From: Chitinophaga pinensis
GTDB taxonomy: Bacteria; Bacteroidota; Bacteroidia; UKL13-3
Direction of reading: 5' to 3'
DNA length: 64,000 bases
NCBI GenBank assembly: GCA_945860865.1
Contig: CAMARW010000001.1
Coordinates: 586,294 to 650,293, forward strand
The position numbers and the translations under genes were made by a program. This document shows, in pieces, positions 13,646-18,341 of this stretch. Within the stretch, counting starts at the first letter, position 1; every line of letters starts with the position of its first letter. The notes beneath the pieces were generated by a model. The model ran no database searches. It was given only the letters and a program-made list of their open reading frames with translations, and was not told the origin of the DNA.

Positions 13646-14775
13646 GTGTTTGGGGAATTATTTGTTTAACATTGTCATTAGCGTATGCCAGCTTACTATT
13701 AATCTACTTTGTAGCTTGGCTGTTTATTCCCACTCAGAAAAAACCTTTTGGGCTTGAACCTAAGCAGCGATTCAGCATTTTAATTCCTGCTCGAAACGAA
13801 GCTCAAAGCATTATTGCTTGTTTAAACGCCATTATTCAGCAAGATTATCCCACAGATTGCTATGAAATAATAGTTATTGATGATTTTTCAACTGATGAAA
13901 CGGCTGTTTTGGTTCAAACCTTTATGGCAGAAAATAAGTTGTTTCCAATTAAATTGTTACAAGCAGAATTACTTAAAATAAAGGGTAAAAAAGCTTGTAT
14001 AACTGCTGCTGTTGAGCAAGCGCAATTTGATTTTATTTGTTTAACAGATGCAGATTGCACAAGAGGTAAAGAGTGGTTAAAAGCAATCAATGCCTTGATT
14101 CAAAAAAAGGCTACCCAGATGATTTATGGTCCGGTATTTTTTAGCGCCAATAATCTTTTTGAGCAATCACAAACATTAGAGTTTATGGGATTGGTAGGTA
14201 TTGGCGCTGCTGCCATTCAGTTAAAAAATCCTAATATGTGCAGTGCGGCTAATTTAATTTTTAAGAAATCAGCTTTTTATGAAATAGGGGGATATGCAGG
14301 CAATGAAAATATTGCCAGCGGAGATGATGAGTTCTTGTTACACAAGATTTTTAAATTGTATCCCAACGAAGTTTTTTTTATGAAAGATTACCGAGCTATT
14401 GTAGAAACCTCTCCCAATGGTTCTATGGAAGAGCTGGCGCAGCAGCGAAGGCGTTGGGTTTCTAAAAGCACCAAATATGATAATAGGTATATTACTGCCA
14501 TTCTAGTAGGAGCGTATTTTTTTAATTTTTCTATGTTTTGGAATGCCCTAGCTGGTTTTTTTATGCCAGGCTTATGGCTTATTTTTGGACTTCAAATTGG
14601 CCTTAAAATTTTGGCAGAAGGATTACTAATATTTGCAGTGTTGCGTTTTTTTAAACAAAGCAAACTCATTTTATTACTGCCATGGGTAGAACCTTTTCAT
14701 ATTTTATATGTATTAATTATCGGTATTTGGGCTAACATACAAACATTTACTTGGAAAGAAAGGAAGTTACAATAA
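13642..14775 (+). CDS. Family 2 glycosyltransferase, membrane-anchored
   Basis: A 377-residue GT-A enzyme. An N-terminal membrane helix (residues 5-28) precedes a catalytic domain with FSILIPARNEAQSI, the nucleotide-binding VIDDFSTDET, the DxD-like metal site LTDADC and the acceptor-site QQRRRW motif. Two to three C-terminal membrane helices follow. This architecture is typical of processive or lipid-acceptor GT2 enzymes at the inner membrane. It overlaps the upstream membrane-protein gene by 4 bases and the downstream small gene by 1 base. Sugar and acceptor are not predictable. Confidence 0.88.
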   Translation: MSVWGIICLTLSLAYASLLLIYFVAWLFIPTQKKPFGLEPKQRFSILIPARNEAQSIIACLNAIIQQDYPTDCYEIIVIDDFSTDETAVLVQTFMAENKLFPIKLLQAELLKIKGKKACITAAVEQAQFDFICLTDADCTRGKEWLKAINALIQKKATQMIYGPVFFSANNLFEQSQTLEFMGLVGIGAAAIQLKNPNMCSAANLIFKKSAFYEIGGYAGNENIASGDDEFLLHKIFKLYPNEVFFMKDYRAIVETSPNGSMEELAQQRRRWVSKSTKYDNRYITAILVGAYFFNFSMFWNALAGFFMPGLWLIFGLQIGLKILAEGLLIFAVLRFFKQSKLILLLPWVEPFHILYVLIIGIWANIQTFTWKERKLQ

Positions 14776-15044
14776 TGCATGAATTAGATGAGGTTGAGTT
14801 TGACATATTAAACGTTTTATATTTTGTTGAACCTTTTGATAAAATATTAGAGGAAGTTCCTTATGCTGCAAATATTGTGGCAGATTCTCTAAAAAATTTA
14901 ATACATAAGAAATGGGTAGTTGCCATGAAATGGGATGAAACGGCGCAAGATTACAAGCGCAGTTTTATTTATGATTCAGATAATATGCGCGCTTATTCTT
15001 ATTTGGCTACTAAAGATGGCTTAATGGTACATAACGGGCATTAA
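14775..15044 (+). CDS. Small conserved-looking protein, winged-helix-like, function unknown
   Basis: An 89-residue cytosolic protein I do not recognise. The ATG at 14775 overlaps the preceding stop (TAATG). The helix-rich N-terminal half (EFDILNVLYFVEP, ADSLKNLIHKKWV) followed by a short beta-like segment resembles a winged-helix layout, but I see no clear DNA-binding signature. No signal peptide or membrane segment. It is sandwiched between a glycosyltransferase and recO with a 5-base gap, so it is part of the same operon. Confidence 0.7.
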   Translation: MHELDEVEFDILNVLYFVEPFDKILEEVPYAANIVADSLKNLIHKKWVVAMKWDETAQDYKRSFIYDSDNMRAYSYLATKDGLMVHNGH

Positions 15045-15049
15045 GCGTT

Positions 15050-15781
15050 ATGATAGAGAAGTGCAGGGCTATTGTGCTACAAACTATTCCTTATTCAGAG
15101 AATAGCTTAATTTTGAAGTGCTACACAGATAAATATGGTTTGCAGAGTTATATGGTAAATGGTTTACGTGGCAAAAAAGCAGTTGTAAAACCATCGCATT
15201 TGCAAACATTAACCTTACTAGAATTAGAGGTTTACCACCAACAAAATAAAAATTTACAGCGAATAAAAGAATTAAGGTGCTTGCCTATTTTGCAAAGTTT
15301 GCATTTTAATCCCTATAAAAGAACCGTTGCCATGTTTGTGGCAGAGTTGCTTGGGAAGGTTTTGAGAGAGGAAAACCAAGCAGATGAGCAGCTTTTTTCT
15401 TTTTTATTTACTGCGGTGCAAATGGCCGATTTATCTGAAGGTAAATTAGCCAACTATCCAGTTTATTTTATGGTTCATTTGAGTAAGTACTTGGGTTTTT
15501 TTCCAAAAGATAACTACACTAATTTGAATGTTTTTTTTAGTTTAAATGAAGGTTTTTTTATTCCTCAAGCACCCCATACGAAAGATTACTGTAATAAGGA
15601 CACTGCCAAAGAGTTGCACTTTTTGCTCCAACTTAATTTTAAAGATGCGCTCGATGAAAGCCTTTTATTACAGCATAGAAAAACACTTTTGCAAAAGATG
15701 CTACGTTATTATCAATTACATTTGCTGTTATTTGGGGAATTAAAATCGCCTCAAATTTTGCACGAAGTTTTTGCTGATTAA
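15050..15781 (+). CDS. recO: DNA repair protein RecO
   Basis: A 243-residue recombination mediator that anneals complementary strands and, with RecR, loads RecA on SSB-coated DNA. The N-terminal OB-fold shows the family pattern CRAIVLQTIPYSENSLILKC, followed by YMVNGLRGKK. The C-terminal part is helical. The CxxC zinc-binding pairs of some RecO proteins are absent. It is the last gene of a tightly packed operon with the glycosyltransferase and small gene. recR and recF are not in this window. Confidence 0.92.
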   Translation: MIEKCRAIVLQTIPYSENSLILKCYTDKYGLQSYMVNGLRGKKAVVKPSHLQTLTLLELEVYHQQNKNLQRIKELRCLPILQSLHFNPYKRTVAMFVAELLGKVLREENQADEQLFSFLFTAVQMADLSEGKLANYPVYFMVHLSKYLGFFPKDNYTNLNVFFSLNEGFFIPQAPHTKDYCNKDTAKELHFLLQLNFKDALDESLLLQHRKTLLQKMLRYYQLHLLLFGELKSPQILHEVFAD

Positions 15782-15810: not shown

Positions 15811-16731
15811 ATGAAGTTATTTATTGCCATTTACGTAATGTTATTGCTGTGTTTTTTGCCTCAAATAATTTGGGCACAAACGCAGATACAGGATGCTAAT
15901 ATTAAGGGAAATTTGTGGCGATTTGAGAAAGTGCCAAGTAAATTTATAGTCCCAAGAAATGTAGATGTTTGGTTGCCTGAAAACTATAATGGAGATGGTA
16001 CTGTGAAATACGCGGTATTGTATGTTCATGATGGGCAAAATTTATTTTACCCAGAGGTGTCTTTTAGCAAACAAGAGTGGGGTTTAGATGAAGCCATGGA
16101 TAGCTTAATGAAATTAGGACAAATTCGAAATACTATAGTGGTTGGAATTTGGAATTCGCCTAGCAGGTTTTTAGAATATACGCCCGATAATAAAATAGTA
16201 AAAAAAGATTCCTTGAATAAAAATCAGTTAAAATGGGATCTTAACTCACAATCACTTTCTGATGCTTATTTACAATTCATTTTTGAGGAGTTAAAGCCTC
16301 TCATTGATTCGCAATTTGCAACAAAAGCGGATATGCGTAGCACTTTTATGATGGGAGCTGGTTTGGGAGGGCTTATTTCTCTGCACGCAAAGTGTAAATA
16401 TCCCGATCAACTCAGAGGAATAGCTGGAATAGGGATGCAATGGCCTGCCAGTTACCAAGAAAAACGTGAGGTAGAAATTCAAAATTATATAGATTATTAT
16501 AGACGGTATTTACCCAATCCTGCTTTGCACAAAATATATTTTGATATAGATGCAAGTATGCGTAATGGCTGGAACATGAGACAACAAGCCTATATGGATG
16601 AACATTGTTATGCCAATGGTTATGGCTCTGCCAAAAATTTTATGAGTTTAATTTTTGATGATAACCTAAAACAAGAAGCGGAATGGCGCAAAAGATTGTC
16701 CATCCCGCTTCAGTTTTTGCTCAAACTTTAG
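15811..16731 (+). CDS. Secreted esterase-fold protein with degenerate catalytic site
   Basis: A 306-residue exported protein (signal peptide 1-22, ending IWAQ) with the enterochelin-esterase/esterase-D alpha/beta-hydrolase fold: YAVLYVHDGQNLF near residue 68 and the C-terminal EAEWRKRLSIPLQFL. The nucleophile elbow that reads GxSxG in active members is GAGLGG (182-187), so Gly184 replaces the serine. The position of the catalytic His before ExxW is Lys287. It is therefore probably not an esterase by the usual mechanism and may bind a ligand or protein. The fold assignment is firm; loss of activity is inferred. It follows recO by 29 bases. Confidence 0.8.
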   Translation: MKLFIAIYVMLLLCFLPQIIWAQTQIQDANIKGNLWRFEKVPSKFIVPRNVDVWLPENYNGDGTVKYAVLYVHDGQNLFYPEVSFSKQEWGLDEAMDSLMKLGQIRNTIVVGIWNSPSRFLEYTPDNKIVKKDSLNKNQLKWDLNSQSLSDAYLQFIFEELKPLIDSQFATKADMRSTFMMGAGLGGLISLHAKCKYPDQLRGIAGIGMQWPASYQEKREVEIQNYIDYYRRYLPNPALHKIYFDIDASMRNGWNMRQQAYMDEHCYANGYGSAKNFMSLIFDDNLKQEAEWRKRLSIPLQFLLKL

Positions 16732-16748
16732 TTGAATGATTCACCATT

Positions 16749-18341
16749 CTAATATTTCGTAAGGTTTTCTCTCATTTTACGTGCGCTTTTGGCAGAATAA
16801 CCAAAATAGATGAGTAGTCCAAATAATAGCCATAACCCAGCACTGATTAGCGTTGGAATGGGTAAGCTAACAATCATAGCACCACAAACTATCATGCCCA
16901 AAATAGGAACTAAGGGTACAAAAGGTGTTTTGAATGGTCTTTCAATATTTGGCTCTTTTTTGCGCATGATTATGATACCCAAACAAACCAGAACAAAAGC
17001 AAATAAGGTTCCAAAGCTAGTTAGATCACCTGCAACGCTGCCTGGAATAAATGCGGCAAAAGCGCCTACAAATAACAATAAAATCCAATTTGCTTTATAA
17101 GGTGTTTTAAATTTAGGATGCAATTCATTAAATGCTTTAGGCAATAAACCATCTTTGCTCATGCTAAAAAATACTCTACTTTGGCCCATCAACATAACTA
17201 ATATTACAGAAGAGAACCCAGCAAGGATAGCAACTGTTACGCTAGTTCCTAGCCATTCGTACCCTTTCATATAGTTTTGTATTGCATAGGTAACTGAAGC
17301 TTCTTTACCTGAAGTTTTGAACTCTTCCCAATTAGCAACGCCTGTAAGCACATGTCCAAATAATACATACAATATGGTGCAAATAATTAAAGAGCCAAGA
17401 ATACCAATGGGCATATCTCTTTTGGGGTTTTTAGCCTCTTGCGCGGCAGTACTTACTGCATCAAAACCAATAAATGCAAAAAACACAATGGCTGCGCCTC
17501 CTAATACTCCGCCCCAGCCATGCTTAAAGAAACCTTCATGACCAATAGTTCCTTCTGGAATCATATAAGGCACATGATTTTCTGGTTTAATAAATTGCCA
17601 ACCTAATCCAATAAATAACAATACTATGGCAACTTTTATAAAAACAATAACTGCATTAACACTAGCAGATTCTTGCGTTCCTTTTATTAAAAGTAAGGTT
17701 AAAGCAAATAAAATAATGAGTGCTGGTGCGTTAATAAACCCTCGTGTTACCTCCACAAAACCTTGCACTTTATCTCCTAGGTGTTCATATATTTCATTGC
17801 TTAAAAGAAGTTGGCCATCTTTAACTTGTGGCGCTAAACTGGGATGTAATGCCAATACTTGATCGATGTTTTCTTGGCCAATAACGCGCTTCATGCTTTC
17901 GAAAGGGGAGTGGCACCATTCATAAGGTATGATGCCGCCGAGGAGGTTATTTAAATATTCGCTCCAAGCAATGGCAACGGTTGCAGCTCCAAGTGCATAT
18001 TCCATTATTAATGCCCAGCCAATAATCCAAGCCATGAGTTCACCCATGGTAACATACGAATAGGCATAAGCGCTTCCAGCAATTGGGATCATAGCAGCAA
18101 ATTCTGCGTAACAAATACCTGCAAAGGCACAGCCAACAGCGGCAATTATAAAACTCATAGATACGGCGGCCCCAGCAGCTTCTGCAGATGCTGCTGCAGT
18201 TCTAACAAATAAGCCAGCACCAATAATGGCGCCCACGCCCAAAGCAACTAAGTTTAGCGCAGTTAGCGTACGTTTTAATTGCGAGCCATCGTGGTGACGC
18301 AATAAATCTTGAAGGGATTTAGTGTAAAAAAAATTCGACAT
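16749..18341 (-). CDS. APC-family amino acid permease (cationic amino acid transporter type)
   Basis: A 530-residue inner-membrane transporter of the amino acid-polyamine-organocation superfamily with about 12-14 membrane segments. The N-terminal helix 1 motif GVGAIIGAGLFV and helix 6 FFAFIGFDAVSTAAQEAKNPKRDMP are the substrate-binding unwound segments typical of the CAT (YfnA-like) group. A large extracytoplasmic insert (about residues 140-200) lies between helices. Substrates are likely amino acids, but specificity cannot be read. It is monocistronic by position and convergent with the esterase-like gene. Confidence 0.9.
   Translation of the reverse strand: MSNFFYTKSLQDLLRHHDGSQLKRTLTALNLVALGVGAIIGAGLFVRTAAASAEAAGAAVSMSFIIAAVGCAFAGICYAEFAAMIPIAGSAYAYSYVTMGELMAWIIGWALIMEYALGAATVAIAWSEYLNNLLGGIIPYEWCHSPFESMKRVIGQENIDQVLALHPSLAPQVKDGQLLLSNEIYEHLGDKVQGFVEVTRGFINAPALIILFALTLLLIKGTQESASVNAVIVFIKVAIVLLFIGLGWQFIKPENHVPYMIPEGTIGHEGFFKHGWGGVLGGAAIVFFAFIGFDAVSTAAQEAKNPKRDMPIGILGSLIICTILYVLFGHVLTGVANWEEFKTSGKEASVTYAIQNYMKGYEWLGTSVTVAILAGFSSVILVMLMGQSRVFFSMSKDGLLPKAFNELHPKFKTPYKANWILLLFVGAFAAFIPGSVAGDLTSFGTLFAFVLVCLGIIIMRKKEPNIERPFKTPFVPLVPILGMIVCGAMIVSLPIPTLISAGLWLLFGLLIYFGYSAKSARKMRENLTKY

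Follow-up and report, generated by a model that had tools for sequence, protein, structure and literature searches.

Gene order and sequence features of the locus

The DNA analysed here, referred to below as the window, is a 64,000-nucleotide stretch from a genome of the Bacteroidota. On its plus strand, positions 15811..16731 (stop codon included) encode a secreted PF00756 protein, an esterase-family member of the alpha/beta-hydrolase fold, in which the whole catalytic triad is missing. Translation gives an uninterrupted frame of 306 amino acids that contains YVHDGQNLF and EAEWRKRL, the two segments that the original prediction had described as intact within a fully open frame. Upstream on the same strand lies recO (15050..15781), and between recO and a glycosyltransferase gene is an ORF for a 97-amino acid protein (14751-15044, plus strand) with no Pfam match above cut-off. 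The downstream neighbor is an amino-acid permease gene, transcribed convergently from the minus strand (16749..18341). An Rfam search of the window gave a single kind of match, to a tRNA.

This arrangement is conserved throughout the genus. The gene is carried by 17 of the 19 genomes searched, and at all 17 loci the order is glycosyltransferase 2 (GT2), the 97-amino acid protein, recO, the esterase-type gene and the convergent permease. The remaining two genomes are uninformative: recO lies at a contig end in G015 and was not found in G016, a genome that is 68% complete. The 16 other orthologues share 43-78% identity with the window protein.

A Pfam profile search placed the window protein in PF00756 (Putative esterase) with an E value of 7.1e-17 and 62.4 bits, against a curated cut-off of 22. 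The match spans profile positions 8-139 of 251 and residues 49-200 of the protein, ending shortly past the nucleophile elbow. No named esterase of NCBIfam scored above its curated cut-off for the window protein; the best was the GTNG_0744 family esterase, with 39.9 bits where 450 are required, and the intact orthologue L008 likewise fell below the NCBIfam esterase cut-off with 36.3 bits. Residues 1-22 (15811..15876, plus strand), read by eye, form a signal-like hydrophobic segment that ends at WA|Q, and similar segments begin all 17 syntenic orthologues, again by eye. Because this N-terminus is kept, the window protein should still be exported.

AlphaFold models were obtained for the window protein (pLDDT 85.8, pTM 0.85) and for L008 (pLDDT 92.8). 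For both, the best of the VIA-align matches listed was the enterobactin esterase Fes (3c87), with Z 26.3 and rmsd 2.4 over 229 residues for the window model, which identifies an alpha/beta-hydrolase fold, and Z 27.1 and rmsd 2.2 over 229 residues for L008. Matches of the window model to CE1 enzymes had Z scores of about 22-23. A PDB search of this kind is evidence on the fold alone and is silent on function. The models differ at residues 129-145 (16195..16245, plus strand), where pLDDT falls below 50 in the window protein, whereas L008 has well-predicted helices there with block means of 92-95. Judging from other esterases, this segment may form a cap over the pocket. The five proteins of the window's own clade lack an ER.G motif with which the 129-148 segment closes in 11 of the other 12 syntenic orthologues.

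State of the catalytic triad within and beyond the genus

Triad columns were read from an alignment, A1, of 40 chosen proteins, each of at most 360 amino acids and with the most distant matches left out; 35 of these lie outside the five-member clade to which the window protein belongs. Column 184 is the nucleophile: in the phmmer alignment to 3gff, Gly184 of the window protein stands opposite the Ser of that entry's 'GHSFGG', and the same column is the elbow position that differs between wild-type BT_4077 (7xrt, Ser) and 7xrv, titled S150A (Ala); like 7xrv, 1gkl is a Ser-to-Ala mutant according to its PDB title. The replacement of Ser by Gly184 in GAGLGG (182-187), as originally predicted, is thus confirmed by translation and by phmmer. 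The acid and His columns were assigned from their invariance in A1, together with knowledge of the fold. Outside the five, A1 proteins have the Ser nucleophile in 34 of 35 cases and the acid Asp and the His in every case.

In the window protein none of the three residues of a Fes- or CE1-type Ser hydrolase, the Ser of GxSxG, the acid Asp and the catalytic His, is present. The nucleophile codon (16360..16362, plus strand) is GGT for Gly184; of the 12 syntenic orthologues that do not belong to the clade, 11 have Ser here. Where relatives read TLDAWY at the acid position, the Asp is Asn252 (AAT, 16564..16566, plus strand), and the His codon has become AAA for Lys287 (16669..16671, plus strand), the residue preceding QExEW; both are fixed in all five clade members. 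The prediction that Lys287 stands for the catalytic His holds, but a loss of "nucleophile and histidine both" understates the change, since the acid residue has gone as well. No other Ser was found in the elbow. The nearest conserved one, S190, lies six residues further on in the next helix, and it is near-invariant across A1, intact members included.

The original prediction had called for orthologues with the same substitutions beside recO, and four were found, so that 5 of the 17 syntenic orthologues, with the window, are affected. These come from G000 (the window), G001, G005, G006 and G014 and read Gly/Asn-Asn-Lys in place of Ser-Asp-His, with Gly at position 184 in two and Asn in three. 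A contig or sequencing error as the source of the loss is ruled out by the five separate genomes; since four further genomes of the genus show the same triple replacement, it is attributable neither to chance nor to sequencing error. Ser-Asp-His is kept in 11 of the 17. These intact orthologues (L008-L018, GSSMG...D...H) occupy the same recO-permease slot, are 44-53% identical to the window protein and have the same fold, as modeled for L008; they differ from the window clade in having both Ser-Asp-His and the ER.G motif. The remaining syntenic orthologue, L019:1498-2400 of G018, has Asp for the nucleophile Ser (GSDMGA) and keeps the acid Asp and the His. It sits on a long branch. Alpha/beta hydrolases with an Asp nucleophile occur in other families, and L019 could have a different chemistry.

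Beyond the genus, searches at the family and order levels yielded 64 genomes each, apparently identical sets, and a class-level search gave matches at E 1e-25 in 60 of 395 genomes, genus members included. Triad states were tabulated for fetched loci only, with a dozen or more weaker matches lying outside the table. From 113 aligned rows we removed 2 duplicate loci (L001, L033) and 13 rows gapped at one or more triad columns, leaving 98. Of these, 81 have Ser-Asp-His, 5 are the window clade, 9 have Ser and His with another residue in the acid column, and 3 are otherwise Ser-less (L019, L085 and L104, the last also without His). The nine are mostly longer, distant homologues in which the acid column is probably misaligned. 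Loss of all three residues was seen in none of the 98 scorable rows apart from the five, and no wider triad-less clade outside the genus was found in the fetched loci.

Partial changes occur elsewhere in the class. In another family (f38), L085:478-1443 (G100) has GSGLGG, with no nucleophile Ser and with Asp and His kept, and L104:504-1451 (G172) has GGGRAA, with no nucleophile Ser and with His replaced by Pro; these Ser losses are apparently separate events. Two PF00756-related proteins from another genus of the same family as the window genome, L045:1761-2852 (G033) and L046:1928-2992 (G021), have His at the nucleophile position in an elbow reading GGHWG. Both are among the gapped rows left out of the 98, and only their nucleophile column was scored. 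L045 also carries a Por_Secre_tail C-terminal sorting domain.

Evolutionary rates and the remodeled active site

The gene tree and a second tree, built from four flanking genes over 606 gap-free columns, each recover the five triad-less members as a clade with support of 100. Within the five, the branching order of the gene tree is weakly supported (37 and 41). In the A1 tree (40 proteins, 293 columns) all 17 syntenic orthologues form one clade (support 100) that divides into the five (100) and the other twelve (84). Since the 17 stand as one clade against the outgroups, the triad was lost in place; since all 23 A1 proteins outside the 17 have Ser-Asp-His, that is the older state. The idea that an outside gene took over the locus is unsupported, given the single clade of 17 relative to the 23 other homologues (support 100). 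The stem leading to the five is 0.594 long and that leading to the twelve 0.051, which puts the change on the lineage of the five. The triple loss is most simply assigned to a single branch.

With the topology of the flanking genes fixed, the branch between the five and the twelve measures 0.937 in this gene and 0.201 in the flanking genes, a ratio of 4.66. The corresponding ratio is 1.51 inside the clade and 1.27 on all remaining branches, leaving aside two tip branches of near-zero length whose larger ratios are meaningless. Under GY codon models, omega for this gene is 0.057 in the five and 0.035 in the twelve, and for recO it is 0.035 and 0.065, respectively; all these values are rough because synonymous sites are near saturation. 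None of the five frames contains an internal stop. As a neutral control, an equal number of nucleotide differences was placed at random, in 1000 runs per pair. The four other clade members have protein identities to the window protein of 0.78, 0.71, 0.72 and 0.70, compared with neutral maxima of 0.58, 0.49, 0.50 and 0.49, and each neutral run produced at least 3 stops, compared with no internal stop in the observed genes. Taken together, the stem and clade rates, omega and the neutral control indicate a burst of change followed by constraint.

The replacements extend beyond the triad. Seventeen columns (59, 65, 72, 124, 128, 198, 209, 210, 218, 230, 247, 252, 255, 268, 287, 288 and 291) show no variation in the five and hold a different residue, conserved in 11 or 12 cases, in the twelve. 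One of them is Gln210 (CAA, 16438..16440, plus strand); of the 35 A1 proteins outside the clade, 34 have His at this position. Among conserved columns, such fixed replacements account for 9 of 42 in active-site segments and for 8 of 106 in the remainder of the protein (Fisher p 0.023), a modest enrichment that is suggestive only, because the segments were drawn after the table had been viewed. The fixation of Lys287, Asn252 and Gln210, alongside a position 184 that is either Gly or Asn, fits a site in which the nucleophile is unimportant and other positions matter.

A probable pseudo-esterase and its alternatives

The window clade combines loss of the catalytic residues with continuing purifying selection, the combination by which a pseudo-enzyme is recognized. 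We consider it probable that the window protein is a periplasmic or secreted pseudo-esterase, with a remodeled former active site and a non-hydrolytic role. The PF00756 gene beside recO was converted in place in one lineage of the genus, losing Ser, Asp and His and gaining Gln210, Asp247, Arg/Lys251, Asn252, Asn255, Lys287 and Gln288 in and around the old active site; these changes lie on one fast stem branch, after which the gene came under ordinary purifying selection. The classical acyl-enzyme route needs Ser, Asp and His, and with all three missing it is closed to the window protein. Hydrolysis by a Ser-His-Asp triad would accordingly be absent, and the protein would instead act by binding, either in the periplasm or beyond the cell, with a remodeled pocket that offers fixed basic and amide groups to a ligand or partner. 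At the site of the former catalytic His the pocket now has Lys287, a fixed basic residue, together with Arg/Lys251, and this might perhaps point to an anionic ligand, though that is a guess from sequence. More tentatively still than the loss of hydrolysis, the catalytic pocket may have become a new selected site for a new ligand or chemistry, built on the fixed Lys287, Asn252, Gln210, Asp247 and Asn255 with Arg/Lys251, the orthologue itself having been converted along the fast branch with no intact duplicate left in at least the window genome. Alternatively, a pseudo-esterase of this kind may have had its pocket filled in and may function through another surface.

The fast stem branch and an omega somewhat above that of the other orthologues (0.057 against 0.035) are also what might be seen in a relic gene decaying after loss of its substrate pathway. 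We regard such decay as very improbable: it is contradicted by the omega values, the branch ratios and the neutral control, with rates inside the clade near those of other branches and protein identity far above neutral expectation, and the open frames and retained signal-like segment of the clade also speak against it. In this respect the original prediction, which favored a pseudo-enzyme over decay, is well supported by the five-genome clade, its purifying selection, intact frames and fixed replacements; the binding role that it proposed seems reasonable as a hypothesis. The same strong purifying selection, together with replacement residues beyond the scaffold that are invariant or nearly so in all five proteins, could mean that the clade is still enzymatic and works at the old site by a new mechanism that needs no Ser, resting on the invariant Lys287, Asn252, Gln210 and Asp247 with Arg/Lys251. 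This seems unlikely to us, however, as the nucleophile position is Gly or Asn within the clade and the A1 column table, read by eye, shows no newly conserved set of Ser, Cys or His residues in the five to substitute for the triad.

Many pseudo-enzymes work beside active relatives, and the window protein might serve an active esterase homologue as its regulator or scaffold. G005 and G014 do hold a second homologue with intact Ser-Asp-His (L036 and L037, 37-38% identical), and the presence of this second homologue in two of the five genomes is counted against the non-hydrolytic pseudo-esterase as the best explanation. L036 and L037 are not recent duplicates, since they fall outside the 17-member clade. 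A partner role nevertheless appears quite unlikely: G000, G001 and G006 have no second match to the window protein at E 1e-3, so that a regulatory role is not general in the clade. At a threshold of E 0.001, G000 has just one further PF00756 match, an S9 prolyl oligopeptidase; G001 and G006 also have other PF00756 matches.

The pseudo-esterase that we favor is, by profile and fold, a member of PF00756 outside the active enzymes of that family. It has the alpha/beta-hydrolase fold in common with Fes and the CE1/feruloyl esterases (3c87, 7xrt, 1jjf, 5vol), which are Ser hydrolases, unlike the window clade with its missing triad. A parallel is MPT51/FbpD of the antigen 85 group, described as a non-catalytic alpha/beta hydrolase close to PF00756; it is secreted and has an active acyl enzyme among its relatives. 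That protein is a mycobacterial paralogue of active enzymes, whereas in the present case the conversion is at the orthologous locus. Among the matches listed, papers on MPT51 deal with antigens, vaccines or diagnostics, or are reviews. Among the matches listed, the open-licence PMC literature contained no triad-less PF00756 proteins of Bacteroidota. Neuroligins are described as non-catalytic alpha/beta hydrolases that have the fold without a functional triad and serve in adhesion; they are animal cholinesterase-type proteins and belong to a different family of the superfamily than the window protein (PMC5943944). For bacterial orthocaspases, pseudo-variants are described in which each of the two catalytic residues has been replaced (PMC6426788).

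Pseudo-enzymes of the alpha/beta-hydrolase fold are thus already known elsewhere. What is different here is the conversion of an orthologue in its own syntenic slot and not of a spare copy. The locus also carries a warning for annotation, in that the family profile still says 'esterase' (62 bits, PF00756) for a protein with none of the three catalytic residues. It is often the case that pseudo-enzymes are pictured as spare duplicates next to an active parent. Within one genomic slot of a single genus, the triad-bearing and triad-less orthologues provide a clean before-and-after pair for the post-catalytic use of an esterase fold.
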